A DNA stretch of 24,290 nucleotides from a virus, in IMG/VR virus record IMGVR_UViG_3300025141_000729, positions 1 through 24,290 of that record, one strand, 5' to 3'. Positions 5,190-21,479 of this stretch are shown piece by piece (position 1 is the stretch's first letter; each line of letters opens with the position of its first letter). The position numbers and the translations under genes are program-made. The notes beneath the pieces are model-generated. The model was given only the letters and a program-made list of their open reading frames with translations. It ran no database searches and was not told the DNA's origin.

Positions 5190-5230
5190 GAAAATAGAAA
5201 ACCCCACGCTAACATAAGTTAACGTGGGGT
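5190..5230 (-). terminator. Rho-independent terminator after the major capsid gene
   Basis: On the minus strand ACCCCACGTTAAC, loop TTAT, GTTAGCGTGGGGT forms a stem of about 13 pairs with one G-T wobble, followed by TTTCTATTTT. It starts 34 bases after the capsid stop codon. A strong stem and a T-rich tail in this orientation make it a convincing intrinsic terminator. It separates the highly expressed capsid gene from the neck and tail genes. Confidence 0.9.
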
Positions 5231-5264
5231 CTTTTCTACTAACCTGTTGGTTTATTAGTTAAAA

Positions 5265-7061
5265 TTAACCAATGAGGTCCTCGACGATAACTAGACCGTA
5301 CATATCTGGTCTAACCATCTTCTTGGCGTAGCGGGTCATGACGCCCTTACGAGGAACGAAGTCCTCTGTGCCGAAGATAGTTGGAGTTACCTGGAGTGGG
5401 ACATATGGAGCGTACACGTAGCCGCTCTCAAGGAATGAACCACCCTTGCGTCCTGCGAGGACGACATTGCGTGGGAAGTATGGGTCAACATAGACATCCC
5501 ACTTCTTGCTAAGGTTACCGACCTTTACAGCACCGACAGTACCACGATCTGCATCGCCAGTTACGTCAGCACGGAATCCAGAGGTAAACTCAAGGATGTT
5601 GGCAACTTCTGGGCCACAAACGATGAAGTTTGCGCCACCACGAAGTGTCTTGCGGTGGATACGAGCGGAGACATCGTTGATAGTCTCACAAAGAGTCTCA
5701 TACCACTCAGACACTGTACCGGTGAAGTCTGGAGCAGTGCTTGCACCAATCTCTTTACCAGTCTCACGGTTTACAAACTTACCAGCGTTACGTGACCAGT
5801 AAAGTGTGCCAGCCTGTGAGCCAACGATGAGGTCCTCAAGGATCTCACGGTCGATCTCAAGAGCGATCTGCTCTGAGAGAATACCTGTAAGCTCAACCTC
5901 TGCGTCGAGGTTGTGATAAGCATTAAGGTCTTGACCAAGCTCTGGTGTCCACTTAGCCTTCAACTTCTTGGTTCTAGCAGTCACGGAGACGCTGTCTACC
6001 TTGATGTCGATCTCAGGGATCTCAGTGTTGTTCTCAAGTCCCCAAGTGTCAGCACCAACAACAGCACCGATACCACGAGCGTCAGCTTCGGCAGTAACGT
6101 TGTTGAAGTTATCAGTGATTGGGAAAGCGAGCGTGATGGCGGAAGTACCGGTAAGAGCGGATAACACACCGACAGTGGGTGCTCCAAGGTCGGCAGGACC
6201 GCCGACTCCAGCAGAACCTGTTGAGCGAACAACCATCTGAATCCTTAAAGCTTCATTTGATGGATCACTACCAGCGGAGCCGGAAGCAAGCGTGCTCAAA
6301 CGACGAACCATGCGGATCTTTGTTGAACCACCAGCAATTGGAGTGATTGGAACAAGATTGTCAAGGTTAAGCTGGCCCAAATTAGTAGTACCAGTCATCT
6401 CGAACACAGCGCAAATTGTTCCGGAAAGATCTGGGTCGAAGCGGCAAAGCTCGTTAAGCTTATCTACGTCGGCCTGCGACTGTCCGGGGTGGGCTCCAAC
6501 CCCAGCCGCAACCGTACCGGATGCGACGACAACGAACCCAGAAGGGAGCAGTGCGATGGAGGCAGTTGGAGAGGAATAACCGTTATTAAGGGCGTAGAAT
6601 GACTCTTCGCCACCGTCCTCAGTGCCACTGTTGTATACGCCGAGTTGAACACCACCAGTAATCTGGTGTCCTACAACTCCACCACCGTAAAGTGAGTCGC
6701 CACTCTCGTTACCGAGCTTGGAAGTGGTGAATGTGAAGTCAAGGAAAAAGATGAGACCTGATGGAAGGCTCATTGGCTGAACGGATACGAGATCGTTAGC
6801 GATAAGTCCACCGAAAACACGACGGACGAGTGGGAAAGCTACAGCGGCGAAACCTTCAACGTCTCCACTTGCCATAGTGCTTGCCTCACGAAGTAGCTCC
6901 TTTGCTTGATTCTCAAGCAGGCGGGCCATGCCATTTTTTTGTGAGTCACTGTTAATACCCTCAAGAAGTCCAGTCTTCTCCCACTTATTCAGTAGAGCAG
7001 CACCTTCCTTCTGGAGATCTCTATTAACAATGCCTTCTGTTAATTTATTCAATACAGACAT
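5265..7061 (-). CDS. 23: Major capsid protein, gp23-like
   Basis: Forms the hexamers of the head shell. It has 598 residues against 521 in T4. The N-terminal region carries GFAAVAFPLVRRVFGG, then LIANDLVSVQPM (about residues 70-97), which matches the conserved gp23 segment after the propeptide. A likely prohead protease site is LRE at residues 57-59 (cleavage after E59), giving a propeptide close in length to the 65 residues removed in T4. The C-terminus has YVYAPYVPLQVTPT and a final RKGVMTRYAKKMVRPDMYGLV block typical of the family. Residues 120-290 are richer in Gly, Ser and Ala than T4 and may form an enlarged insertion domain. An AAAGGAG site precedes the ATG at 7061, and the gene is closed by the terminator at 5190-5230. 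Confidence 0.95.
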   Translation of the reverse strand: MSVLNKLTEGIVNRDLQKEGAALLNKWEKTGLLEGINSDSQKNGMARLLENQAKELLREASTMASGDVEGFAAVAFPLVRRVFGGLIANDLVSVQPMSLPSGLIFFLDFTFTTSKLGNESGDSLYGGGVVGHQITGGVQLGVYNSGTEDGGEESFYALNNGYSSPTASIALLPSGFVVVASGTVAAGVGAHPGQSQADVDKLNELCRFDPDLSGTICAVFEMTGTTNLGQLNLDNLVPITPIAGGSTKIRMVRRLSTLASGSAGSDPSNEALRIQMVVRSTGSAGVGGPADLGAPTVGVLSALTGTSAITLAFPITDNFNNVTAEADARGIGAVVGADTWGLENNTEIPEIDIKVDSVSVTARTKKLKAKWTPELGQDLNAYHNLDAEVELTGILSEQIALEIDREILEDLIVGSQAGTLYWSRNAGKFVNRETGKEIGASTAPDFTGTVSEWYETLCETINDVSARIHRKTLRGGANFIVCGPEVANILEFTSGFRADVTGDADRGTVGAVKVGNLSKKWDVYVDPYFPRNVVLAGRKGGSFLESGYVYAPYVPLQVTPTIFGTEDFVPRKGVMTRYAKKMVRPDMYGLVIVEDLIG

Positions 7062-7088: not shown

Positions 7089-8150
7089 TTATTCGATTCC
7101 CGCCAACGCCTTCCAGCGATTGGAAACGGGGTCTGCGATAGTTTTCTTGGCCTTTCGGCTTCGAAGTGTTGTTGAAGATTTTCTGGTAACTGCTTCGCTC
7201 AGTGACTTTGGAGAACGCTTCCTGTCGATTGCTCCCACTGCGCTTTGAAGTGTTTCGAAAACGACCTTCGCCTCTTCAACACTATCGGTTTTGGAAATCG
7301 CTTCAACAATTTTAGTTTTTTGTCGCTCATTCAAAGAGGTACTGCCCAAAACACGATTAGTATAAAGCAACTTAGCGTTTGAGAGATTGACTTCTTCAAG
7401 CCTCTCTTTCATCTGCATAAGTAAATCTTTATATTTTTTATTCTCGCCAAGAATTTCCTGATTTTCAGAATAGATTTGCTTGAAAGCTTCTTCGAGTTCA
7501 ATTTTCTCCTCGTCGAATTTCTCGCCTTCGGCTTCAATCTGTGCATTCTCAGCGGCAATAACGTTTGCTAAGTCCTGAAGTTGTGCGTGGTTTGTACCAC
7601 CTCCAGGGACTCCGGAAGGAACTGCTGTGGCGTCTACTGTTAACTCTTCAACGATCTCAGCAATGTCTTCCTCATTAATTTCAATTTCTTCCTCCTCAAG
7701 AACTTCTTCTTCTTGGAGGGTTTCTTCTGCCTCTTCAAGATTCTCTTCCTCTTGAATGGCCTCTTCTTCGAGTGGAACTTCGTCTACAATTTCTTCTCTT
7801 GAAGTCATCTCTTCTGGACTTGGTGTAAGTGCTCCGAGGTCAAGCTCGATTTCAACTTCGCCGTCTTCGTGATCTGGACAACCACATTCTGCGTCGTGTT
7901 GATGAGCCATTGGGATCTCTGGAAGCTCTTCTACTTCTGCATCCATTTCAAATTCTTCTTGTTCTTCAAGCTGTGGCGTGTCTTCAATAGCGGCCAGGTC
8001 TTCTGGCTGCTCTTCCTCATCGAGAAGGCTGTCAACTGCCTCTCTGATCTCATCTGAGTATTTCTCGATGATTGCCGCTTCGGCGTTTTTTAACGCAGCC
8101 TCTTTAAGGGCTTCGGCGTCGATGATTGCTTGCTCTAACATTACAGACAT
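7089..8150 (-). CDS. 22: Prohead core scaffold protein, gp22-like
   Basis: Internal scaffold that shapes the prohead and is then degraded by the gp21 protease. The 353-residue protein is extremely acidic from about residue 25 to 170, with long Glu runs, then coiled-coil-like from about 200 to 270, and basic at the C-terminus (RKSSTTLRSRKAKK). Many L-x-E and I-x-E tripeptides, the T4 protease recognition pattern, are scattered through it. A small HQHDAECGCPDHED cluster near residues 83-96 interrupts the acidic region and could bind metal, which is speculative. T4 gp22 is 269 residues. Position immediately before gp23 is as in T4. The ATG at 8150 has GGAG 9 bases upstream. Sequence similarity in scaffolds is weak, so composition and synteny carry the call. 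Confidence 0.85.
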   Translation of the reverse strand: MSVMLEQAIIDAEALKEAALKNAEAAIIEKYSDEIREAVDSLLDEEEQPEDLAAIEDTPQLEEQEEFEMDAEVEELPEIPMAHQHDAECGCPDHEDGEVEIELDLGALTPSPEEMTSREEIVDEVPLEEEAIQEEENLEEAEETLQEEEVLEEEEIEINEEDIAEIVEELTVDATAVPSGVPGGGTNHAQLQDLANVIAAENAQIEAEGEKFDEEKIELEEAFKQIYSENQEILGENKKYKDLLMQMKERLEEVNLSNAKLLYTNRVLGSTSLNERQKTKIVEAISKTDSVEEAKVVFETLQSAVGAIDRKRSPKSLSEAVTRKSSTTLRSRKAKKTIADPVSNRWKALAGIE

Positions 8151-8245: not shown

Positions 8246-8680
8246 CTAGGTGTACTCGTTGATACCGGAGCCAGAGAGTACATACATCTCTTTAGTAGGA
8301 ATACGAGTTAATTCTGCGTAGACTTTGAACCCGGAGCCAGCTTTTCTGGAAGTGATATATAATTCTCTACACTTTACATTGAAAGTAAAAGATTCAGTTT
8401 CAACTGGGCCACCTGTGGCGTTGTTTAATTCGACAAAGTGCTCGCCTGCTATTGCTCCACCGTCGCCTTCGTCTTTACTAGCGAAATGAACTCTGATGTT
8501 AGAAGCACTTCCTGAAGCAAACACGGTTATTCTCTTGGTCACTGCTGGGAATTCGATTTTGGCTTCTGCGCCCAGAGCGAGAGTGCTAGAGCCTGTAATG
8601 AAGGGACCTCCAGCTACCTGATATGAACCTACGTTTCCAATACCCACTCCGGGGAATTTTGTGTAATTTGCTTCTGCCAT
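8246..8680 (-). CDS. Unassigned small beta-rich protein, possible head or virion surface protein
   Basis: I do not recognise a named family. The 144-residue protein is rich in Gly, Ser, Thr and alternating hydrophobic residues (for example EFPAVTKRITVFASGS near residues 44-59, then SNIRVHFASKDEGDGG, and FTFNVKCRELYITSRK near 98-113), as expected for a single beta-sandwich domain without enzyme motifs or membrane segments. It lies between the bS21 homologue and the scaffold gene, inside the head operon, so a capsid decoration or other virion surface role is plausible. That role is inferred from context and composition. An AGGAG site precedes the ATG at 8680. The single cysteine (in VKCREL) is unremarkable. 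Confidence 0.75.
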   Translation of the reverse strand: MAEANYTKFPGVGIGNVGSYQVAGGPFITGSSTLALGAEAKIEFPAVTKRITVFASGSASNIRVHFASKDEGDGGAIAGEHFVELNNATGGPVETESFTFNVKCRELYITSRKAGSGFKVYAELTRIPTKEMYVLSGSGINEYT

Positions 8681-8708: not shown

Positions 8709-8927
8709 TTAGTAATTAGATTGCTCTTTTGCCTTTAGACGTCTCAAAACTGCTTTTCTCTTTTTTTCTAAGCGTCGTTTTTTAGCGCTTGGCTTTTCAT
8801 AATATCTTCTTGAACGGACATCATCGAGGATGCCCTCTTTCTTGACCTTACGAGAAAATCTTTTTACAGTTCTCTCGATAGATTCTCTATCTTTTGGTTT
8901 TATTTGTACATGTACTGGTTTGCTCAT
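8709..8927 (-). CDS. rpsU: Ribosomal protein bS21 homologue
   Basis: A 72-residue, strongly basic protein, the same size as bacterial bS21 (71 residues in E. coli). It has the family hallmarks in order: a polar N-terminus (VHVQIKPKDRESIE), RFSRKVKKEGILDDVRSR (about residues 24-41), the signature RRYYEKPSAKKRR (about 40-52), and a lysine/arginine-rich helical tail. bS21 sits on the small-subunit platform near the mRNA Shine-Dalgarno helix. Phage-encoded bS21 proteins are known from marine phages, including a pelagiphage, and some have been shown to enter bacterial ribosomes. Its ATG overlaps the TGA of the preceding gene in an ATGA arrangement, so it should be translated together with the protease-core genes, that is, late. 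No truncation or missing core residue was seen. Confidence 0.92.
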   Translation of the reverse strand: MSKPVHVQIKPKDRESIERTVKRFSRKVKKEGILDDVRSRRYYEKPSAKKRRLEKKRKAVLRRLKAKEQSNY

Positions 8928-9352
8928 TTGTCGTTACCTGCTAATGTTTTCCAAGTTCTTGTATTTCCCATAAGTGAGGAGATGTCTATTCCTGCATCTT
9001 CTGGGTCAGTACCAGCAAGAGCGCCGTGGTCAGGGCCTGAAGTTGATGCCATTGGCTTTGTTCCCTCAAAAAGGTCTACGCCATTGTAAGAAGATTGGCC
9101 AATGGCGTTGAGCATCTTCTCTCTGGTCTCTTTCATCTTGCTGTTTCGTGCTGCTTCAGCTTTAGCGAGACGTTGGTCTTCTTGTGCCTCTTGAAGCTTT
9201 GGAGGGGCTGCGTTCAGGGTTGGGGTTGAAATAGCTACGCCGGTTACAACCTCTGCAATAATACCTGATAGAACTCCATCCTCAAAGATTACTTCTTTGA
9301 TACATTCTTTGATAAGCGGCTTCAATACTTTTTTTAATTCTGTTTTTTTCAT
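8924..9352 (-). CDS. Unassigned protein, possible prohead core/internal protein
   Basis: I do not recognise a family with known function. The 142-residue protein starts with a lysine-rich amphipathic helix (MKKTELKKVLKPLIKECIKE) followed by VIFEDGVLSGIIAEVV; I-K-E, I-F-E and similar tripeptides fit the cleavage pattern of gp21-type proteases. Residues 45-80 are Ala/Glu/Lys-rich and probably helical, and the rest is low-complexity Gly/Asp/Ser with a final TWKTLAGNDK. Its ATG overlaps the protease TGA (ATGA), and its own TGA overlaps the bS21 ATG. In T4, small core proteins gp67 and gp68 are encoded beside the protease, so a comparable core role is possible, but no similarity to them can be shown by eye. 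Confidence 0.8.
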   Translation of the reverse strand: MKKTELKKVLKPLIKECIKEVIFEDGVLSGIIAEVVTGVAISTPTLNAAPPKLQEAQEDQRLAKAEAARNSKMKETREKMLNAIGQSSYNGVDLFEGTKPMASTSGPDHGALAGTDPEDAGIDISSLMGNTRTWKTLAGNDK

Positions 9353-9954
9353 TTCTCGTCTCTAATGATGTCGTTTAGAAGTCTGTTGATTTTATCAGCC
9401 TTGGTGTAAATGTTTGGCTCTTTGCCCTCTTTCATCATAAAGGCTCCTGTAGTGGATGGCTCGGATACGAAGTCAAAGCAGATAAGTTGGAAATCGTCTT
9501 CAACGATTGTTTGCCCTGCTCGCTCGCTTACAGATCCCAAACCTCTGGATGAGATTCCCAACTTCACTTTTGCCTTAACAAGGGATTTCAAAACTTGGCC
9601 TGATGGCGTGTCTAAAATCTGGACTTTGCCCATCAAAGCACTGCCGTCCCACCACATGTCTATAACAAGGTGGGAGGCGTTTGCTAAATTAACTACTGAT
9701 GAATCTGGGTGATCTAACTCTCCAAGTGCTCGTCTTTCTTTTACCAATTTGGTGTAGTTCTCAGCTTCTCGTCTAAGAACCCCTTCTGGATAAACTCGTC
9801 CATTTCCGTTTTGCTCTCCAAAACGTTGCATAACTCCTGTTAAATAACAAGCGTCATTGTCACGCATCTGTCTCTTTTCGTCTTCTGTGAGAAGGTCTTC
9901 ACAAATGCCGCCTTCACATAACTCATAAAACTCACTTAGAATCATTTTACCCAT
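9349..9954 (-). CDS. 21: Prohead core protease, gp21-like
   Basis: Serine protease that cleaves scaffold, capsid and core proteins during head maturation. It has 201 residues against 212 in T4. The family motifs are all visible: NGNGRVYPEGVL (about residues 49-60), ALGELDHPDSS with the probable catalytic His82, MGKVQILDTPSGQ (about 108-120), LGISSRGLGSV with the probable catalytic Ser (135 or 136), and DFQLICFDFVSEPST (about 154-168). The L-S-E, I-C-E and L-T-E tripeptides near the N-terminus could serve self-cleavage. The start ATG at 9954 has GAGG 11 bases upstream; an in-frame ATG at residue 4 would be closer to the next gene but farther from that site. It heads a coupled set with the next two genes and follows a 93-base gap holding two hairpins. 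Confidence 0.93.
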   Translation of the reverse strand: MGKMILSEFYELCEGGICEDLLTEDEKRQMRDNDACYLTGVMQRFGEQNGNGRVYPEGVLRREAENYTKLVKERRALGELDHPDSSVVNLANASHLVIDMWWDGSALMGKVQILDTPSGQVLKSLVKAKVKLGISSRGLGSVSERAGQTIVEDDFQLICFDFVSEPSTTGAFMMKEGKEPNIYTKADKINRLLNDIIRDEK

Positions 9955-10891: not shown

Positions 10892-11717
10892 TATTAATTT
10901 CTTTCACCAAGCTTTGAATTTTCAAGACCCTTTTGAGTAAAGCGTCGTTGATTGTTTTTGTGCTGAAACTTTCAACAATCTTTAAAACTGTCTTTGTTTT
11001 CTCTAACATATCCTCGTCTTCTTTTATTTCAAGAGAAGAGAGTGATTGCTGGATTTTACTTTTCAATCTTCCAATCTCTTCGTTGAGATGAATTTTAAAC
11101 TCGACACCATTGTCCAAGAAGGAGACGATGTATTTGTTAAGAAGCTGCTTTTGCTCTTCCAGAAGCTTGCTTCCGTACTCTGCGTTGAACTTCTTTACGA
11201 ATGTCTTGTAAGTGATGTTGTCGATTGTATCAAGGTTCTGAGCTTTCTTTTGCTCTGGGGATGATACCATCGTTCTCATCATTGTCTCCTCAAGGAGAAC
11301 TCTTTCTTTTGTTGTAGCCTCACCATTAAAGATTTGATAAATGGTGGCCAAGCTTTTATAATTTGGAACAAAACTTGAATAAGATTGTTTAGAGAGGCTT
11401 TGGTTGATTTTCTTGATAAGTGTGGTCTGTTCACTGAACAACCCTTTCTTATCTAATCCATCATGTTGCTTTCTAATCTCAAAGATAAGCTTCTCTGCTG
11501 AGTGTGGAGACATGTTGTATGTTTCACACAGTTGCTTGTAGAGCTTTAGTTCCTTCCCCATGAGTGTGTCTCTGTGGAAGTGCTCTTTAATCATTCCCAT
11601 AATTTTATTTTTTAACTCTTCGTTCTTTTTTACGACCGACTTGGTCAGTTCTCTAACCAACATCTCGTAAAGAAAAGCGGTGTTTCTTTTTTTATTATGC
11701 TTCAGTTTTGACTTCAA
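10875..11717 (-). CDS. Unassigned helical protein overlapping the portal gene; probable TTG start
   Basis: A 280-residue, lysine-rich, mostly helical protein without recognised catalytic motifs. The N-terminus has HNKKRNTAFLYEMLVREL (about residues 7-24), followed by charged helices; the last third contains further coiled-coil-like stretches. The reading frame opens with TTG at 11717, inside the last codons of the portal gene (23-base overlap); a GGAGA site lies 9 bases upstream. The first internal ATG (residue 19) has no good ribosome site and would cut into the NTAFLYEMLV block, so the TTG start is preferred. Position directly after the portal suggests a head-assembly role, but this is inference. 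Confidence 0.8.
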   Translation of the reverse strand: MKSKLKHNKKRNTAFLYEMLVRELTKSVVKKNEELKNKIMGMIKEHFHRDTLMGKELKLYKQLCETYNMSPHSAEKLIFEIRKQHDGLDKKGLFSEQTTLIKKINQSLSKQSYSSFVPNYKSLATIYQIFNGEATTKERVLLEETMMRTMVSSPEQKKAQNLDTIDNITYKTFVKKFNAEYGSKLLEEQKQLLNKYIVSFLDNGVEFKIHLNEEIGRLKSKIQQSLSSLEIKEDEDMLEKTKTVLKIVESFSTKTINDALLKRVLKIQSLVKEINNGDNS

Positions 11718-13602
11718 CTTTCTTTGTCTCCAATTCGTTAATAAGTTTGCGAACTTGATTGTTTACTTCAAACAGCTTTTGCTCTTCCTTATAAGTAGTA
11801 TCAAGTTCTTCATAAGTTAGATTTGCGATGCTCTTCAATTCGGAATAGCCTGGATTGCGAACGTATGAGTTATTTTTACCATAGTTGCTTGCACTCTTGG
11901 CTTTCATCCCCTGAAGTCTTCCGCCTGCTGATCTGCGGTCATCGTGACCTTTACGCTTGTACTTTGCCCCTTTCCAACCTGGCTTAGTGTATTCGTCATT
12001 TCGCTTTGCCGGGGCGGCGAGAAGTGGGCTTTCATCTTCTGCCTCGGGCTCTTCTGCTGGCTCATCAAGGTCCAGTTCAGGCTCGTCATCTAGGCCAAAG
12101 TCTTCATCGCCAAAGGCGTCGGTTTCCAAGTCTCCACCGGCTGCTGCCGCCTCAAGATCTGCCTCACCTTCTATTTCAAGGCTGGCCTCAAGTTTGCGGT
12201 CGGTGAACATCTCTCTCTGGTTGCGGAGGAACTCTTCCTCAGACATCCCAAAGAGATGATGGGCAATCCATCGCTTACTGAAGAAGCCTTCGGTTGCTGC
12301 GGAGGCAGCGTCGAATTTAGATCTCCACGTTTCAAGCTCTTGAAGTTGAGCAATCTTGGAAGGGTTATTCAAAGATAGTTTGAAAGAGAGTAGGTCCTCT
12401 CCACGGAAGCCGAGAGTGTAGAGGTGGATAACTCCAATCTTCTCTAATTCTGCGATGACTGCTCTTTGAAGCCTCTGGATGGTTCGGGCGAAGCGAATGT
12501 CCTTCTGTGCGAGGGTTGCTTTGTCCTCGTCAGCACCTTCACCACGGAACAAGTAGGCTTGCGGGACCTTGAGGGCTGCGAATAGTTTGTCCTTCAGATA
12601 CTTGACGTCATCAATGTCTCCGGTGTAAGTTCCACCTGGGAGGGTCTCTACCCTTGTTGAGACGCCTGCACGGGAAGGAATGAAGTAATCCTCCTCGATG
12701 CTCGTTGGGTTATAGCGTAGGTCAACTCTACCTGTGTTGGAATCTACAACTTGGTTACGCTTCATTTGCGTTACAACCTTCTGCATATACTGCTCAACAT
12801 CGTTAGGAGCAATGTTTCCAACATCAACGTAGAAGACTCTACGCTCCGGTGAACGAACAATACGATAAGCCATCACTGCATCTTCAAGGAGGACCAGTTG
12901 TCTCCAAATACGACGGGAGGCTTCTAATACGGATGTTCCGTATGGGGTGTATTTGTCGTTCCCCAGAATTCTAAAATGGGCAATCTGCCAATTCTCAAAT
13001 GTTAAACCACCTGAGTTCCACTGATACTGGACGTAATTAGGATTTGTTTTATCTTCACCCTCCAGTCTTTCAATCTCGCCAGAAGGCATACCGATTACAT
13101 TGGTAATACCGTCTTTGTCGTCAATGTCGAGGTAAAGGAAGAAGTCTCCATACTTACACATTGAACGGGACCAGCCAAACAAATTTGATTCAAGGTTGAT
13201 AACGCTCTGAAATAGAGTGTTGAGAATCATTTTGATTTCTTCGTTGGGGCAACTGATAGACAGGAGAGGTTGAAGTTCTGATGAAGTCGTCATCTCGTCT
13301 GCATAGATGTCCAAAGACGAAGCAATGATTGGCTCATACTCCATTTGATTGAAGTCTGAGTATCTATCCACTCGGTTTTGTGCCGCCAAGAGATTGGAGG
13401 TCATGTTGGCGAAAGGATCGTATGCTACTTTCTTGAACTGTTGTCCACTGGCTGAAGTAAACTTGTACTTGTCCATTTGGATTCTTGGCTCTCGCCTTGG
13501 AATCTGCTGTCTGTAATTTACAATTGGTCCAGAGAATAAGCGGGTTAGTCTCTTAAAAAGTGCAGAGTCTTTGTTTCTCGTATTATCGTCTTTTCCAGCC
13601 AT
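11695..13602 (-). CDS. 20: Portal vertex protein, gp20-like
   Basis: Forms the dodecameric ring at one vertex through which DNA is packaged and to which the neck attaches. The first 480 or so residues match the gp20 pattern: NQMEYEPIIASSLDIYADEM (about residues 85-104), then GDFFLYLDI, the segment YTPYGTSVLEASRRIWRQL (about 217-236), VRSPERRVFYVDVGN (about 249-263), and TYTGDIDDVKYLKDKLF with ALKVPQAYLFRGEG. The 635 residues exceed T4 gp20 (524); the excess is a C-terminal tail that is first very acidic (Asp/Glu-rich, about 485-545) and then basic (KPGWKGAKYKRKGHDDRR) before a short helical end. The gene follows the terminase stop by 8 bases. Confidence 0.95.
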   Translation of the reverse strand: MAGKDDNTRNKDSALFKRLTRLFSGPIVNYRQQIPRREPRIQMDKYKFTSASGQQFKKVAYDPFANMTSNLLAAQNRVDRYSDFNQMEYEPIIASSLDIYADEMTTSSELQPLLSISCPNEEIKMILNTLFQSVINLESNLFGWSRSMCKYGDFFLYLDIDDKDGITNVIGMPSGEIERLEGEDKTNPNYVQYQWNSGGLTFENWQIAHFRILGNDKYTPYGTSVLEASRRIWRQLVLLEDAVMAYRIVRSPERRVFYVDVGNIAPNDVEQYMQKVVTQMKRNQVVDSNTGRVDLRYNPTSIEEDYFIPSRAGVSTRVETLPGGTYTGDIDDVKYLKDKLFAALKVPQAYLFRGEGADEDKATLAQKDIRFARTIQRLQRAVIAELEKIGVIHLYTLGFRGEDLLSFKLSLNNPSKIAQLQELETWRSKFDAASAATEGFFSKRWIAHHLFGMSEEEFLRNQREMFTDRKLEASLEIEGEADLEAAAAGGDLETDAFGDEDFGLDDEPELDLDEPAEEPEAEDESPLLAAPAKRNDEYTKPGWKGAKYKRKGHDDRRSAGGRLQGMKAKSASNYGKNNSYVRNPGYSELKSIANLTYEELDTTYKEEQKLFEVNNQVRKLINELETKKVEVKTEA

Positions 13603-13610
13603 TATTTATT

Positions 13611-15185
13611 TTATCCTTTAATAATCCAACTAAATTCTTGGTATTGTTTTATTGTATCACGATCTTTAACAGGTTTATAGCCATTCATACCAGAAACTGT
13701 GGTATTCATTGTTTTATTTGTTTTTACCATCGCTCCTAACATCGCCTTCTTATACTCTATGTCCTTCTTGCTCTCAACGAATGCTGTATCACGCACCCAA
13801 CAACCGATTGCGAAAGCCATAATCAAGTCGTCGTTGTAACTTCTCATTGATTGAGCTTTGCCATTGTTCCAAACAAAAGTCTTGAACTCGTTGTAAAGTC
13901 TGGAAGAATACGTTTTAATTAGTTTATTTCTCATAAATTCTTCCATCTTCGCAATAATCATAGGTCTTGTCTTGAGGGAAGTTGTAAAACCAGCAACTGC
14001 GGAGTTGATTCCCTCTGCGGTGTATTGGTCAACGTATTCGTGAGTTGATTTGATAGAGTGATAAATGTTTGGGTATTCCATTTCTTTCAGTTTGTCAAGC
14101 ACTGTGAAGCCTACAGAGTTGTTTTCTACAACAATCATACAGTCTCCGAACTCTTTTCCTGCGTCGGCTAGGACATTGGCGAAGACGTCTGGGGTTACCT
14201 TTCCTTGATACTCTCCGACAATCTCCATCGTGTCTAACTTGAAAATGTGAAATACTGAAAAGTCTTTTCCGTCTCCTCTCGCAACGTCTGCTGCTAAGAG
14301 ATAGGAAGCCTCGTTCTGATGTTCTTCCCAAATCCAGAAGTTTCGGTCAAAACCTGCTCTGTATTTTGGTTCTTTGGCCATCTCTCCAATTCTCTTTAGA
14401 TCGTCTGGATGGATAACTGTCTCACCGGAGGTATTGAAATTACACTCTAATTCCTGTGCGATCTGACGGCGGGACATATTTCGTGTCTCTTTCTCAAACC
14501 ACGCTTGGTCACGGTCGGGGTGAACGTCCCACATAAGGAGGGTTGGATGGAAGTCGTTTGCTTGGTGCTCGGAATCGACATAGGTTTGATGAAACCAGTT
14601 TCCTACTCCGTTGGGAGTGGAAAGAGCGATACAGCGACCACCTGTTGACAGTGTGGGGTACAAACCGGTCCAAAGCTCTGTAAGACCTTCAACGTGAGCA
14701 GCCTCGTCTACAACGAGTAGAGAGAGTGCTTCTGAACGACCAGCGTCGCCTGAAGTGGATGAAGCCTTGATTTGTGAACCATTGTCTAACTCAAAGCTTG
14801 CTCGGTTGTCTATCTCAACGTCTGAGATTCTAATCCAGGGAGGCAGGTTCTTGATGATGGCTTTCGTCTTCTTTACAAGATTTGCTGCTGTTCCGAACTT
14901 CGTAGCCATAACGAGGATGTTTTTGTCCCTGTGGAACATCATCATCCAAGCAACATAAGCCGCTGTAATCGTTGAGATGCCTAACTGTCTCGCTTTGAGG
15001 ATAATGTTAAAGCGATAGTCGTTAAAGTCTCTTACTAAATCTTCCTGGTAGTCGTATAGTTTAAACGGAACCAGCCCGTGCATCGGGTGGGAGATTTTAG
15101 CGTAGTTGTTGATGAAGTAATTTGGATCTTTACCACACTTGACGATTTCTGCAAGTATTTCTTTTTTGGATAATTGGTAGGACAT
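13611..15185 (-). CDS. 17: Terminase large subunit, gp17-like
   Basis: ATP-driven DNA packaging motor with a headful-cutting nuclease. It has 524 residues against 610 in T4. The ATPase domain has a Walker A-type KARQLGIST (residues 64-72, the variant form seen in T4-like terminases), Walker B LLVVDEAAH with D160 and E161, and motif III STPNG (189-193). The nuclease domain shows acidic residues in LLAADVARGDGKD (D300), VVENNSVG (E354) and SYNDDLIMAF (D452/D453), the RNase H-like triad. No active-site residue is missing. It directly precedes the portal gene, unlike T4 where gp17 precedes the sheath. No recognisable small terminase (gp16) is seen; the 172-residue gene just upstream is the only positional candidate. 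Confidence 0.96.
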   Translation of the reverse strand: MSYQLSKKEILAEIVKCGKDPNYFINNYAKISHPMHGLVPFKLYDYQEDLVRDFNDYRFNIILKARQLGISTITAAYVAWMMMFHRDKNILVMATKFGTAANLVKKTKAIIKNLPPWIRISDVEIDNRASFELDNGSQIKASSTSGDAGRSEALSLLVVDEAAHVEGLTELWTGLYPTLSTGGRCIALSTPNGVGNWFHQTYVDSEHQANDFHPTLLMWDVHPDRDQAWFEKETRNMSRRQIAQELECNFNTSGETVIHPDDLKRIGEMAKEPKYRAGFDRNFWIWEEHQNEASYLLAADVARGDGKDFSVFHIFKLDTMEIVGEYQGKVTPDVFANVLADAGKEFGDCMIVVENNSVGFTVLDKLKEMEYPNIYHSIKSTHEYVDQYTAEGINSAVAGFTTSLKTRPMIIAKMEEFMRNKLIKTYSSRLYNEFKTFVWNNGKAQSMRSYNDDLIMAFAIGCWVRDTAFVESKKDIEYKKAMLGAMVKTNKTMNTTVSGMNGYKPVKDRDTIKQYQEFSWIIKG

Positions 15186-15778: not shown

Positions 15779-16267
15779 TTATTCATTCATTAAATCCCAA
15801 TCAAAATTATACGGGATAATCTTTGCTTTTTTAAATAAATTCTTTTTTTCCTCGACATTTTCCCACATCTTACAGGACCAGTAGCGTGCTTTTGTCTTAG
15901 GTCCAGGGTTGTCGCATTTATGCCTTGCTCTAAAGGACTTGCGGCGCTTTGGATTGGATTTCTTAATTTTCATTTTAGGGTCACCAAAGCGAACAATTCT
16001 GACGTTTCCAGTCTTGGGGTCCTTTACATATACTTTGAATTTTTTAGACTCTCCAGAAGTTCTAATTGGTTTGTTGAGGGTAACCTTTCTTCCCTGGTAT
16101 TCAGCCTCTGGAACTAAATCTGGGCAGTTACACTTTGCTGCTTCTAGGAGTTCAAAAAGGCATACTGGGCAGACAAGCGTTCCGTCTTCGAGGACTGCGG
16201 ATTGCTCTTGAAAAACCTCTATCTCTTCAAGAATAATCTCTTTAAGTCTTTTCTTTGTGATTTTCAC
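15779..16267 (-). CDS. Putative zinc-binding protein with RFGDPK/FRARH domain; probable GTG start
   Basis: Small basic protein of unknown function. Starting at GTG 16267 gives 162 residues beginning VKITKKRLKEIILEEIEVF. Next come C-P-V-C and C-N-C clusters (about residues 33-48) that could hold zinc. The C-terminal half has RIVRFGDPKMKIKKSNP and RRKSFRARHKC, followed by KTKARYWSCKMW, a block I recall from many marine phage proteins without known role. An ATG 42 bases upstream (16309) is in frame but lacks a ribosome site and deepens the overlap with the preceding gene to 68 bases, whereas the GTG has GGAGA 7 bases before it and an overlap of 26. It pairs with another cysteine-rich protein immediately upstream. 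Confidence 0.75.
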   Translation of the reverse strand: MKITKKRLKEIILEEIEVFQEQSAVLEDGTLVCPVCLFELLEAAKCNCPDLVPEAEYQGRKVTLNKPIRTSGESKKFKVYVKDPKTGNVRIVRFGDPKMKIKKSNPKRRKSFRARHKCDNPGPKTKARYWSCKMWENVEEKKNLFKKAKIIPYNFDWDLMNE

Positions 16268-16646
16268 TGTTTGGTCTCCAACCTGTTTTCCAGCGTTCTT
16301 CACGCCCATCTACATATTGAATGTAGCAAGACCAGCAGCATTCGTATTTGTTCATATACAAATCGTCTTTCAGATCAAATGAATAGATTTCGCATACGGG
16401 GCATTTACGGTCACTACTATCTCTTTTAAGTAGTTTTTTGCTTAGTAAAAACCCATCTTGTTCAATCTTTTCAGTCTTTTCTGAACTCTTCTTTCTTTTC
16501 TTCTCGGCTTTTTTGATTTGCTCCTGATAATCCTTTTCCTTCTCATCGGTCCAATCAGATTTAGGATGTTGGACTGTCTTCTCTCCATACTTTCGTTGTA
16601 TGGCTTGTTCGAGTTGAGCTATTTTATCTTGGTCGGGCTTCTTCAT
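16242..16646 (-). CDS. Small putative zinc-ribbon protein
   Basis: A 134-residue protein with a highly charged, lysine/glutamate-rich N-terminal half (about residues 30-62, probably helical) and a C-terminal zinc-ribbon-like domain: CPVC at residues 82-85 and CCWSC at 103-107, separated by 17 residues, then REERWKTGWRP. Two C-x2-C pairs at this distance are typical of a treble-clef or zinc-ribbon fold, which can bind nucleic acid or protein. The partner is unknown. It is the first gene after the fiber terminator, with a promoter-like motif just upstream, and it overlaps the next cysteine-rich gene, so both are probably made together. Confidence 0.78.
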   Translation of the reverse strand: MKKPDQDKIAQLEQAIQRKYGEKTVQHPKSDWTDEKEKDYQEQIKKAEKKRKKSSEKTEKIEQDGFLLSKKLLKRDSSDRKCPVCEIYSFDLKDDLYMNKYECCWSCYIQYVDGREERWKTGWRPNSENHKEKT

Positions 16647-16772: not shown

Positions 16773-19700
16773 TTACTCTGAGAGCTTTGCCTTAAGGTCT
16801 TCAATTTGAGCTTGTTGCTCTTTGATAGCCTCTACGAGAACCGCAGAAACTCTGGCGTAATCAACACCCATGATGTCGCCTTCAGCAACACACTCTGGAA
16901 GAACCTCTTGGATCTCCTGAGCGATGAAACCGAAGTCAGCAGTACCGGAAGATTTCCAGTCATAAGTTACACCACGAAGATTCATAACCTTATCAAGAGC
17001 GCCGTCGAATGTCTCGACATTGGTCTTAAGGTTCTCGTCGGAGTATGTAACGAATGCAGAAGCTCTTACCTTGTTGATGTTGTTTGAGCCTTCAGCTACG
17101 TCGAGAGCGAAGTCACTGCTGCTGTTACTTCCCAAGGAGAGAAGGTTGGCACCTGATTGAAGGATTGCCATTTTGTTAGCAGAAGCGTCGAAGAATAATC
17201 TCTCGTTAGCGGCTGTTGAGTAGAAGATAACATCTTTACCAGTGCCGTCCTCAGAAACAGTAAGAGTTCCGTCAACTTGAGCGTTACCCTGAACTGTTGT
17301 GTTTTGTGAACCGTCAAAGGTCAAAGCAGCAGCGCCGCCTGAGTCTTTGATGTCGTTACCAGCAACCTGGAGGTCGCCTTGGACATAAGTATCACCGTTT
17401 GAGAAATCGACATAGAAACGGAAGCTGTTACCAGCCTGGTTTGAAACAGCGAAACGCTTTCCGCTAGTCTCATTACCTGGCTTGACCATGACGTGACCGG
17501 AAGCACCGGACAAGATCATGCTGCTCTGGGCGCTAACGCCCATTGTGCATTTGTCAGTGCTACTAGCCATCTCAATGTGGGTTGTGCCCTTGGCAGCAGT
17601 CAACAAGAGTTGGCTTTGACCAGTGACGTTACCCTTGACGTCAACAGCACCTTCGATGTCAGCATCTTGCTCAAGGTCGAGGTTGAAACCAGCGAGTTCA
17701 GCAGAAGCACTGAGACGTCCAGCAATGGCGAGAACTGAACCGTTGAAGGTAAGGTTTCCACTATCCTCGATCTCACCGGCAGTACCAGCGAGAACGACAC
17801 GACCTGAAGTAAGGTCGCTAACCTTTGCTGATGAGAATGTAGCAGTAGTGGCGCTTGCAGCACCGATTACTGTTCCGTCGATGGAACCACCATTGAGGTC
17901 CATTGTTGTAACAATACCCATGTCAGCTACTGTACGACTGGCGTTAGTCCAGTTGTTAGCCATGCTTGCGATACCGAGAGCGTTGATGTTATCAACGTCT
18001 CTGCTTCCGTCCAAGACAAGAGCCTTGTTGGCAGCACCAGTACCGTCAGTAATACCGTCAAGCTTTTCCATATCAGTCTCGTTGAGATCAGCGGAACCAA
18101 TGATGAAGCTTGTACCGGCTGTTACGGCACCAGTAGCGGTGACGTTACGGAATCCAGAAGCGTCCTTGTTGGAATCAACAACAACGGCTTTTGAAGCAGC
18201 GACAGTACCATTAGTGATACCATCGAGCTTCTCCATGTCGGTCTCGTTGAGGTCAGCGGAACCGATGATGAAGCTTGTTCCTGCGGTTACTGAACCGGCT
18301 ACATCCATGTCACCATCAATGTCAGCGTCAGCTTCGATGTCGAGTGAGTGCCCTGAAAGAGCGGCAGATGAGGAAACTGTTGAACCGATGAGAGTGGTAA
18401 ATGTACCAGCGGCGGCGCTGTTAGCACCGAGCACTGTTCCATCAATAGCACCACTGTCTACGTTGATGTTGGTGATAGCTTGGCTATTAGCATCAAGAGC
18501 AGCACCAAGCTGGTCAGCTTGAAGACTATCAATGTAAGCAGTTCCGTCGAGGTATAGGTCTTGGAACTCCTTAGTGGAGGAACCGAGGTCGCTGTAACCG
18601 TCAGCGAATGGAAGAATGTCAGCAGCGAAAGTTGCTTCGCCCTTAACCTGAAGGGTTGAGGAGGCGCTGAGTGTTGTGAACTGAGCAGCAGCCTGTGAAG
18701 CAGCACCGATGACTGTTCCGTCAATAGCACCACTGTCTACGTTGATGTTAGTGATAGCCTGACTGTTGGCGTCGAGAGCGGCACCAAGTTGGTCAGCTTG
18801 AAGGCTATCAATGTAAGCAACACCATCAAGGTAAAGATCCTTGAACTCAGCACCGGAAGCACCGAGGTCTACGTCGTTGTCAGTCTCTGGGCGAAGAACG
18901 CCGTCCTGAAGACGCATCTCAGTAGTTCCAGCGAGATTAAAGTCAAGAGCAGTGTTAGAGTGGTCGTACTTGATGGAAGCAACAGTATCAGAACCATTAG
19001 TTCCACCCATTTGGAGACCACCACCATCAGCAGCAGCAGAAGCAGAGCCTGAAGCAGCGACGATGAGCTTATCGACAACCTCAAGAGTTGTCTCTGTTCT
19101 TGAAATGCTGTTGATCTCGTTCACATCGAGGCGGTCGATCTGAGCGTAAGAAGCAGTCAAGAAAGTTGAAGTCATTGAGTTGACAGTGTCGAAGTTGCGG
19201 CTACCGTCAAGGACAAGAGCCTTGTTAGCAGCACCAGTACCATCAGTGATACCGTCCAACTTCTCTAGGTCAGCCTCGTTAAGATCAGCAGAACCGATGA
19301 TGAAGCTTGTTCCAGCAGTTACAGCGCCAGCAGCAGTGACGTGGCGGAATCCGGAAGCGTCCTTGTTAGAGTCAACAACGACAGCCTTGGAAGCGGCGAC
19401 AGTACCATTAGTAATACCGTCTAACTTCTCCATATCAGCCTCATTAAGGTCGGCAGAGCCGATGACGAAGCTAGTGCCTGCGGTTACAGCGCCTGTAGCA
19501 GTTACATTGCGGAAACCAGAAGCATCTTTGCTGGCGTCTACGACGACAGCTTTGGAAGCAGCAACAGTACCATTAGTGATACCATCGAGCTTCTCCATGT
19601 CAGCCTCATTAAGATCGGCTGAACCGATGATGAAGCTTGTTCCGGCTGTTACTGAACCAGCAACGGCCATGTCGCCATCGATATCGGCGTCAGCCTCGAT

Positions 19701-20363
19701 GTCAAGGGAGTGACCGGAAAGAGCAGCGGAAGATGAAACAGTTGCACCAACGAGAGTTGAGAATGAACCGTTGGCAGTGCTATTAGCACCGATAACAGTT
19801 CCGTCGATAGCGCCGCTATCTACGTTGATGTTAGTGATTGCTTGACTGTTAGCATCAAGGGCAGCGCCGAGTTGGTCAGCCTGAAGGCTGTCAACGTAAG
19901 CGGTACCGTCAAGGTAAAGATCCTTGAACTCCTTGGTTGATGAACCGAGATCTGATGTATTATCAGCGGCTGGAAGCAAGTGAGTTTGGAAAGTTGCGAC
20001 TCCACCAACACCGAGTGTTGAGGAACCAGACATTGAACTATCGAAGGTAGCAGCCTCATCGACGTTGAATGTACCACGAACTGTGGTTGAGACACCACTG
20101 GCTGCGAGAGCAGTTTGTCCAGCGACATCAAGAGCACCGTTGAGGTCGGAAGCACCGGCCACGGTGAGAGAGTCATTAACGGTTACATCATCAGCAGTTA
20201 ACTGGGTCATTTCCATAGTAGAGGCGGAAAGAGGGCTGTTAGCCTTAATTCTTTCTGATCCTACTGCGCCGGAAACGAACATTGTACCTGGAGCGGTGAT
20301 TGAACCGGAGTAGTTCTGAAGGGAGATATATTTCCCGTATTCAGATTTATCAATTGCAGACAT
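16773..20363 (-). CDS. Long tail-fiber-type protein with nested repeats and S74 chaperone domain
   Basis: Probable host-contact fiber or baseplate-attached fiber subunit, 1196 residues. The N-terminus (MSAIDKSEYGKYISLQNYSG) is the likely attachment end. Residues 60-900 form a repetitive Ala/Gly/Ser/Asp-rich shaft with two repeat families: units with GTSFIIGSADLNEADMEKLD (period 55 residues) and units with KEFKDLYLDGTAY. The C-terminus is a peptidase S74 intramolecular chaperone domain: YSDENLKTN with the expected catalytic Ser1108 and Lys1113, LRGVTYDW, then FGFIAQEIQEVLPE and a final coiled coil (VEAIKEQQAQIEDLKAKL). In known S74 proteins this domain trimerises the fiber and then cuts itself off before the catalytic Ser. 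The ATG has an AAGGAG site upstream, after a structured leader. Which receptor or host structure it binds cannot be told. Confidence 0.9.
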   Translation of the reverse strand: MSAIDKSEYGKYISLQNYSGSITAPGTMFVSGAVGSERIKANSPLSASTMEMTQLTADDVTVNDSLTVAGASDLNGALDVAGQTALAASGVSTTVRGTFNVDEAATFDSSMSGSSTLGVGGVATFQTHLLPAADNTSDLGSSTKEFKDLYLDGTAYVDSLQADQLGAALDANSQAITNINVDSGAIDGTVIGANSTANGSFSTLVGATVSSSAALSGHSLDIEADADIDGDMAVAGSVTAGTSFIIGSADLNEADMEKLDGITNGTVAASKAVVVDASKDASGFRNVTATGAVTAGTSFVIGSADLNEADMEKLDGITNGTVAASKAVVVDSNKDASGFRHVTAAGAVTAGTSFIIGSADLNEADLEKLDGITDGTGAANKALVLDGSRNFDTVNSMTSTFLTASYAQIDRLDVNEINSISRTETTLEVVDKLIVAASGSASAAADGGGLQMGGTNGSDTVASIKYDHSNTALDFNLAGTTEMRLQDGVLRPETDNDVDLGASGAEFKDLYLDGVAYIDSLQADQLGAALDANSQAITNINVDSGAIDGTVIGAASQAAAQFTTLSASSTLQVKGEATFAADILPFADGYSDLGSSTKEFQDLYLDGTAYIDSLQADQLGAALDANSQAITNINVDSGAIDGTVLGANSAAAGTFTTLIGSTVSSSAALSGHSLDIEADADIDGDMDVAGSVTAGTSFIIGSADLNETDMEKLDGITNGTVAASKAVVVDSNKDASGFRNVTATGAVTAGTSFIIGSADLNETDMEKLDGITDGTGAANKALVLDGSRDVDNINALGIASMANNWTNASRTVADMGIVTTMDLNGGSIDGTVIGAASATTATFSSAKVSDLTSGRVVLAGTAGEIEDSGNLTFNGSVLAIAGRLSASAELAGFNLDLEQDADIEGAVDVKGNVTGQSQLLLTAAKGTTHIEMASSTDKCTMGVSAQSSMILSGASGHVMVKPGNETSGKRFAVSNQAGNSFRFYVDFSNGDTYVQGDLQVAGNDIKDSGGAAALTFDGSQNTTVQGNAQVDGTLTVSEDGTGKDVIFYSTAANERLFFDASANKMAILQSGANLLSLGSNSSSDFALDVAEGSNNINKVRASAFVTYSDENLKTNVETFDGALDKVMNLRGVTYDWKSSGTADFGFIAQEIQEVLPECVAEGDIMGVDYARVSAVLVEAIKEQQAQIEDLKAKLSE
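17997..18593 (-). repeat. Second copy of the large intragenic fiber duplication
   Basis: Encodes residues 591-789 of the long fiber. It contains one SDLGSSTKEF-type unit, the SSAALSGHSLDIEADADIDG linker, and two 55-residue GTSFIIGSADLNE units (starting at residues 694 and 749), ending GAANKALVLDGSR. The same series occurs at residues 137-389 with three 55-residue units. Many segments are identical in protein while the DNA differs at most third positions. Confidence 0.9.
18705..18872 (-). repeat. Isolated third copy of the KEFKDLYLDG unit
   Basis: Encodes residues 498-553 of the long fiber: VDLGASGAEFKDLYLDGVAY, then the SLQADQLGAALDANSQ stretch and the linker NVDSGAIDGTVIG. It matches units at residues 137-194 and 591-648 but is not followed by the 55-residue units, so it marks a partial or later-trimmed duplication. 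Confidence 0.85.
19197..19955 (-). repeat. First copy of the large intragenic fiber duplication
   Basis: Encodes residues 137-389. It contains one SDLGSSTKEF-type unit, the SSAALSGHSLDIEADADIDG linker, and three tandem 55-residue (165-base) units beginning near residues 240, 295 and 350 with AGTSFIIGSADLNE or a close variant. The last unit shifts to GITDGTGAANKALVLDGSR, exactly as the last unit of the other copy does. The copies therefore differ mainly by gain or loss of one internal 165-base unit. Confidence 0.9.
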
Positions 20364-20540: not shown

Positions 20541-21479
20541 TTATTCGCTTGGCTGCTCTGTATTTTTCATTTTCTCAATCATTTCTTTTAGTTGATTGAT
20601 TTCATTTTTTTGATTTTTTATTTGCTCTTGCTGTTCTTTAATTGACTCGACCAAAATGGGAATCACTTTCTGGTAATACATTCCTTTTGCACCATCTGAA
20701 TCTTCTTCCCAGTCTACTACTTCTGGGATATGTTCGCCCACCTCTTCAGCAATGAAGCCGTAGTCTGGTTGACCTGAATTCTTCCAGTCAAATGTAACTC
20801 CACGAATCTTAGAGAGGGTTTCAAGAGGTTCATTGATTGTTTCAATGTTTTCTTTATACCTCTCGGAACTATATGTTGCCCAAGCATAGGCAATGCCCTT
20901 ACCATCGTTGCTTGCTGTGTTGGCGAGAGTGAGAGCGTGAGTGGCTGAATTGACGCCAACTCCAATTCTGTTTGTGCCTGTGACGAAGAGAGAACTTGAA
21001 ACGAAGGTTGTTTTTTGCAGATGGATATCTCCTGCTGCCGAGCTTAAGTGAAGGTTATATCCGTTGACTGCACTTACATGACTGTTCCTGATGGCCACAT
21101 TAGAAATCTTCATACCCTTATTTGGGTTTGCGCTCCCGATCTGGATGTCACCTTCTGCGTCAGAACTAATGCTCTCTGAGCCGAGATAGAGGGTGGAACT
21201 GCTCAAGTATAGGGAACCAAAAGGATTGTCTTCGCTTCCTAAATTATGTGAACCGGATCCTGCGGGGATGATGTGTCCTGTGTTAGATATATTATCGTCA
21301 TCATCTATGATAATTCCAGTTTGTTGGACATGTTGGGTGCCGCCTTCATCATCACCTTTTACAAGACGATTGTTGGCAATGCTTCCGGTTACGTTGACAT
21401 CATCATCTCCGTTGCCCGAAATCTCTCTAATAATCTTCTCAAGTTTACCCCGAGAATAGTTGCCTATCTTTCCAGCCAT
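20541..21479 (-). CDS. Short fiber/tailspike-type protein with S74 chaperone domain
   Basis: A 312-residue virion-type protein. The N-terminus is basic and helical (KIGNYSRGKLEKIIREISG), then Asp-rich low-complexity sequence, then short beta-type segments (LGSEDNPFGSLYLSSS, about residues 80-95) as in fiber shafts. From about residue 200 it has a peptidase S74 chaperone domain: YSSERYKENI with expected catalytic Ser204 and Lys209, IRGVTFDWKNSG, YGFIAEEVGEHIPEV, and a C-terminal coiled coil (LVESIKEQQEQIKNQ). The domain is clearly paralogous to the one closing the next gene, but the shaft is much shorter. Possibly a companion fiber segment or adaptor; which one is not decidable. It starts 14 bases after the preceding membrane-protein gene. 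Confidence 0.85.
   Translation of the reverse strand: MAGKIGNYSRGKLEKIIREISGNGDDDVNVTGSIANNRLVKGDDEGGTQHVQQTGIIIDDDDNISNTGHIIPAGSGSHNLGSEDNPFGSLYLSSSTLYLGSESISSDAEGDIQIGSANPNKGMKISNVAIRNSHVSAVNGYNLHLSSAAGDIHLQKTTFVSSSLFVTGTNRIGVGVNSATHALTLANTASNDGKGIAYAWATYSSERYKENIETINEPLETLSKIRGVTFDWKNSGQPDYGFIAEEVGEHIPEVVDWEEDSDGAKGMYYQKVIPILVESIKEQQEQIKNQKNEINQLKEMIEKMKNTEQPSE

Follow-up and report, generated by a model that had tools for sequence, protein, structure and literature searches.

A phage bS21 gene retained among the head-assembly genes of far-T4-like myoviruses, with probable late expression and a putative role in the host ribosome

Introduction

Why should a virus keep the gene of a ribosomal protein among the genes that build its head, and what could the product do when it is made there? 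This question is raised by an open reading frame at positions 8709–8927 (minus strand, 72 amino acids) of a 24.3-kb virus record, the whole of which was analysed and is referred to here as the window. An initial annotation had described the product as the small ribosomal subunit protein bS21, had singled out its location in the head operon as the striking feature and had proposed that a late supply of bS21 could shift host ribosomes towards phage structural mRNAs. Both the placement and the late-supply hypothesis had already been published (Chen et al, 2022; PMC9723584), as had the incorporation of a phage bS21 into ribosomes (Mizuno et al, 2019; PMC6375957), and the proposal is, hence, a restatement of a published one. 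The present analysis makes two modest additions, which are the near-universal retention of bS21 in a far-T4 lineage, within the interval from gp21 to the scaffold gene, and a phage-specific, lysine-rich helix 1.

Results

Identity of the gene and its neighbours

Judged by its sequence, the product of 8709–8927 is almost certainly bS21. It contains RYYEKPSAKKRR and scored 58 bits (E = 7.7e-16; cut-off, 27 bits) against PF01165 (Ribosomal_S21), over positions 1–51 of the 55 in the profile, and 48.3 bits (cut-off, 28.95 bits) against the NCBI equivalog TIGR00030, so that the curated cut-offs were exceeded and the whole domain was covered. Matches to PHROG 21469 ('ribosomal protein S21') and, by phmmer, to solved bS21 chains were also obtained. 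The [YF]xKPS core with a basic C-terminal helix is present as YYEKPSAKKRR, and its residues K45 (100%), P46 (98%), and S47 (98%) are conserved in the lineage. The full-length homologue with this signature that the initial annotation had reported is thus borne out, and the family placement that it had asked of a profile search was obtained.

The genes of the minus strand are ordered as terminase large subunit (TerL; 13611–15185; PHROG 2, E = 1.9e-52), portal protein (11695–13602; PHROG 213, E = 6.5e-71), three small genes, a prohead core protease of the T4 gp21 type (9349–9954; PF03420, E = 6e-27; PHROG 207, head maturation protease), a conserved small gene (8924–9352), bS21, a second conserved gene (8246–8680), a scaffold-like gene (7089–8150), a major capsid protein of the T4 gp23 type (5265–7061; PF07068, E = 7.4e-72), and neck and sheath genes. 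The protease is two genes upstream of bS21 and the capsid gene three genes downstream, which makes this a head-module-linked bS21 in the sense of Chen et al (2022), with the prohead protease and the capsid gene no more than about 2–4 genes away, and the site between a protease-linked gene and head genes had therefore been described correctly. Best matches of the terminase, protease, and capsid proteins were to Flavobacterium phage immuto, the huge uncultured phage LR756508, and Microcystis phage Mel-JY01, and Rhodothermus phage RM378 matched the window capsid at 40%. The phage, with its T4-type gp17, gp20, gp21, and gp23, is closer by these best matches to RM378-like and far-T4 phages than to T4 or cyanophages, and is placed on this basis among the uncultured far-T4 myoviruses (PMC4360716).

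The genes flanking bS21 are less readily named. PHROG and Pfam searches gave nothing useful for 8924–9352, which is alignable across the lineage and encodes 142 amino acids with the N-terminal motif KKxELKxxLKPLIKEC, or for 8246–8680. The former product, whose gene is an almost invariable neighbour of bS21 in the lineage, may be a component of the prohead core or may work together with bS21. The latter (144 amino acids) was modelled by AlphaFold2 as a beta-sandwich (mean pLDDT, 80.5), for which a fold search gave weak beta-sandwich matches and no confident assignment, and it may be a virion or head protein, such as a head decoration protein. The product of 7089–8150, an acidic coiled protein in the gp22 position, gave no PHROG match; a scaffold role is suggested by its composition and by its position, which is between bS21 and the capsid gene in relatives too.

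Elsewhere in the window, the product of 15779–16309 (PHROG 7595, to which no function is assigned) carries a CxxC pair and an N-terminal helix motif, KKRLKEIILEEI, that resembles the motif of 8924–9352, and the two may have a targeting signal in common. A 1196-amino-acid fibre-like protein is encoded at 16773–20363, with 165-bp internal repeats at 19218–19652, and the C-terminal part of its neighbour at 20541–21479 matched tail-fibre PHROGs. Searches of the window against Rfam and for tRNAs gave no match.

Conservation of the locus among relatives

Relatives were assembled from viral contigs fetched by their protease, independently of bS21, to which contigs found by bS21 were added. bS21 was inside the interval, always on the same strand, in 41 of the 46 loci with a complete interval from the protease to the scaffold or capsid gene, a figure that mixes protease-fetched and bS21-fetched contigs; the question of whether other phages keep the gene between gp21 and gp22 is thus answered in the affirmative for related phages. 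Because the two sets are mixed there, the cleaner figure comes from the contigs fetched by the upstream neighbour (8924–9352 type), in which bS21 was present on the same strand in 79 of 80, the lone exception being a contig that ends 54 nt downstream. bS21 directly follows that neighbour in 66 of these 79 loci, and in several members it lies on the far side of the gene corresponding to 8246–8680, still between the protease and the scaffold gene. A second copy was looked for in relatives' records of up to 204 kb, and none was found. Among the five loci at first scored without bS21, immuto lacks it genome-wide; for the other four (L044, L056, L078, and L107), absence was rejected, as a broader profile recovered a divergent bS21-like gene. 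Effectively, bS21 belongs to the core genes of this far-T4 lineage.

Divergent derivatives occupy the same slot at L044:5078–5401, L056:7042–7374, L078:7060–7329, and L307:2501–2824. In the first three, the N-terminal half is recognisable, an insertion (HPVHGT..CR) replaces YYE ahead of a KPS-like motif, and a long basic tail follows; the L307 copy is 71% identical to that of L044, and a search with the L044 derivative found one other relative only. These derivatives could have adapted to a host with an atypical ribosome, or their function could have changed.

The coupling that had been claimed between bS21 and the gene upstream is a feature of the window more than of the lineage. The start ATG of bS21 (8927–8925) does share 4 nt (ATGA) with the TGA of 8924–9352, as had been noted, but this overlap is found in only 12 of 58 related rows, and most of the others start 0–42 nt past the upstream stop.

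Transcription signals

A strong intrinsic terminator is predicted after the capsid gene (5198–5233, minus strand; 16-pair stem and T-rich tail; fold z = -7.2 against shuffles) and is likely to be the end of the bS21-carrying transcript. The stretch from bS21 to the capsid gene holds no strong terminator or hairpin comparable with it. The T4-type late promoter TATAAATA gave 21 matches against 14 expected, a count reached by 7 of 100 shuffles, and sigma-70 promoters occurred in the window at chance frequency; neither kind of motif was more common than expected by chance. The terminator and the gene order are compatible with late expression of bS21, which would be transcribed late in infection with the head-assembly genes on a transcript that stops at this terminator. 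We consider this late co-production with head proteins to be likely.

Differences from bacterial bS21

The KPS motif is fixed in the lineage as in bacteria, and the conservation profiles of phage and bacterial bS21 correlate (rho 0.45, p = 0.0004); ribosome binding is, therefore, probably kept. At aligned positions 25, 32, and 44, the lineage departs from residues that hardly vary among the bacteria sampled, so that binding might differ. Two of these changes fall in helix 1: a lysine that bacteria commonly have at position 25 is replaced, and the glycine of position 32, invariant in the sampled bacteria, is lost in most of the lineage. Helix 1 is also marked by K29 (100%) and by K27 and K30 (98% each), and the net charge of residues 14–32 is +6 in the lineage versus +2 in bacterial bS21. 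According to a published interpretation of the structure, helix 1 covers the anti-Shine-Dalgarno (anti-SD) sequence where mRNA would bind (PMC9723584). In Bacteroidota, the anti-SD is sealed by the aromatic residue Tyr54. At the position corresponding to residue 54 of Flavobacterium johnsoniae bS21 (sequence checked against 7jil), the aromatic of the Bacteroidota-type, anti-SD-sequestering protein is absent: the window has Ala59, and R, K, or A is commonest in the lineage. The changes in helix 1 could conceivably alter the choice of mRNA.

Shine-Dalgarno sites and the host

Of 23 window genes, 16 have a site that pairs with the 16S tail with an energy of -4 kcal/mol or lower, compared with 22% of random sites. 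Strong SD sites on most structural mRNAs, as had been claimed, are thus general in the window, but those of bS21 (-4.6) and of the gene just upstream (-2.9) rank toward the weak end. Lineage-wide medians were -10.2 for the capsid gene, -6.8 for the scaffold gene, -4.6 for bS21, and -2.5 for random sites, and the capsid and scaffold SDs are the strongest measured in the lineage; the TerL value was set aside because its start codons were probably picked too far upstream. The window genes are, hence, unlike those of a Bacteroidota phage, which mostly lack SD sites (1 of 13 in immuto at the same threshold), and this strong SD usage suggests that the host is probably not a typical member of Bacteroidota.

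Inheritance and selection

Distances among the bS21 proteins track those of TerL (rho 0.57) and the portal protein (rho 0.59), with a protease–TerL control of 0.65. In a tree that included 102 bacterial sequences, the 58 lineage rows formed one branch (SH-aLRT 100), within which the lone bacterial row, on a branch of length 3.05, probably reflects faulty sequence extraction. This tree, built on 57 columns with many unresolved forks and a bacterial sample biased toward sequences with YYEKPS and toward one further phylum, indicates a separation of the phage clade from the sampled bacteria and not an origin. The nearest bacterial clade had been expected to hint at the host; as the lineage bS21 is one phage clade that follows phage core genes, and the bacterial sampling is biased, the naming of a host from the tree was rejected. 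The dN/dS ratio of bS21 (median 0.07, maximum 0.18; 36 close pairs, some from other phage groups) indicates purifying selection; the window's nearest relatives have 0 or 1 synonymous change at bS21 and add nothing to this estimate.

Discussion

Putting these lines together, we regard it as moderately probable that 8709–8927 encodes a functional phage bS21, that the gene is handed down along with the head-assembly genes in a lineage of marine far-T4-like myoviruses and is most likely transcribed late, and that the product probably enters the 30S subunit. In the host 30S, the phage protein would displace or supplement the host bS21, which is loosely bound beside the anti-SD tail, and would keep initiation efficient during the bulk translation of strong-SD head mRNAs. 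Of these steps, incorporation into the host 30S appears likely, and a real preference for phage mRNA is the weakest and is doubtful. As a family, bS21 binds the 30S platform near the 3' end of the 16S rRNA; incorporation of a phage member has been demonstrated only for the bS21 of pelagiphage HTVC008M, which enters E. coli ribosomes (70S), and ribosomes containing it supported in vitro E. coli translation at about 5% (Mizuno et al, 2019; PMC6375957), so that incorporation need not help.

How much the protein does beyond entering the subunit is the point at which explanations part. It may act by dose, topping up a limiting and easily lost protein and thereby keeping 30S subunits intact late in infection with no preference for phage mRNA. 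That bS21 assembles late, is loosely bound, and is exchangeable (PMC9578407; PMC6375957), that it is under purifying selection with a fixed KPS motif, and that no special selectivity is needed all speak for this account, which we nevertheless rate as somewhat unlikely to be the whole explanation, the lineage-fixed changes of helix 1 near the anti-SD (K29, K27, K30, the loss of G32, and the charge of +6 versus +2) hinting at more. The same changes speak for specialised ribosomes, the idea of the initial annotation and of Chen et al; in the form considered here, the re-tuned, lysine-rich helix 1 of this phage-specific clade, retained beside the head genes throughout a widespread marine lineage, would produce host ribosomes that prefer strong-SD late phage mRNAs, shifting initiation to head mRNAs and off host mRNAs. 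The capsid and scaffold SDs, as the strongest measured in the lineage, fit this idea, as does the finding that Francisella bS21 paralogues alter gene expression (PMC9578407), but the helix 1 contrast was drawn against a biased bacterial comparison set, and such specialisation seems unlikely on present evidence.

A role outside the ribosome would be that of a basic, bS21-like head protein enclosed in the virion as an internal or core component, which would be delivered early or would bind DNA; packaging was raised by Chen et al as well (PMC9723584). The gene stays between the protease and the scaffold gene even when it switches side of its 8246–8680-type neighbour, basic tails vary freely, and some members have an insertion ahead of KPS, all of which speaks for such a protein. 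We consider it improbable, given that the KPS core is fixed in the main clade, that the conservation profile is like that of bacterial bS21, and that a T4-type [LI]xE cleavage site was not found in the 72-amino-acid sequence. Phages do acquire host genes, and several acquisitions of bS21 have been inferred (Mizuno et al, 2019; PMC6375957), but a recent passenger with no special use is scarcely credible here, with bS21 near-universal in the lineage, forming one phage clade (SH-aLRT 100), co-inherited with phage core genes, and having a dN/dS of 0.07. If phage bS21 truly enters host ribosomes, as in the reading we favour, marine far-T4-like viruses would routinely alter the host ribosome in late infection, and the lineage-wide conservation, together with the fixed changes in helix 1, offers specific residues to test.

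Several known systems can be compared with the window. Flavobacterium phage immuto (MW353176), a far-T4 relative, gave the best matches overall for terminase, protease, and capsid and has the same head-gene order; it differs in that bS21 is missing from the entire genome and SD sites are all but absent (1 of 13). The deposited, annotated genome of Microcystis phage Mel-JY01 (PP395634) has terminase, protease, one gene, RpsU, and capsid in this order on one strand; its bS21 is distant (40% identical over 45 amino acids) and, in the tree, groups with that of L022 and not with the main phage clade. The pelagiphages HTVC008M and Mosig share with the window a marine myovirus bS21; in Mosig EXVC030M (L308, MT647606), however, it is located among genes for an AAA ATPase, a peptide deformylase, a small heat shock protein, and a sliding clamp, and not in the head module. 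This setting suggests a timing different from that of head-linked bS21. With bS21 among replication and proteostasis genes in Mosig, late linkage is not general, and the head link is lineage-specific.

The closest parallel is with the phages of lake Bacteroidetes, in which bS21 lies beside protease and capsid genes, a protease being within ten genes of bS21 in 310 of 900 published bS21 phages, and is highly expressed when the late genes are, with the proposal that host bS21 is replaced so that phage transcripts are favoured (Chen et al, 2022; PMC9723584). Common to them and the window are a bS21 a few genes from the prohead protease, capsid, portal, and terminase genes, a co-conserved hypothetical neighbour, and the proposed late supply and ribosome takeover (PMC9723584). 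In the lake phages, bS21 is on the strand opposite to the structural genes and not in one operon with them, whereas it is on the same strand in the window; their bS21 has a Tyr54-like aromatic, which the window bS21 lacks; and their hosts are usually without SD sites, whereas the window phage genes have strong ones. The window is a useful case for an idea that arose in Bacteroidetes phages, as its genes, unlike those of its Flavobacterium phage relative, carry SD sites.
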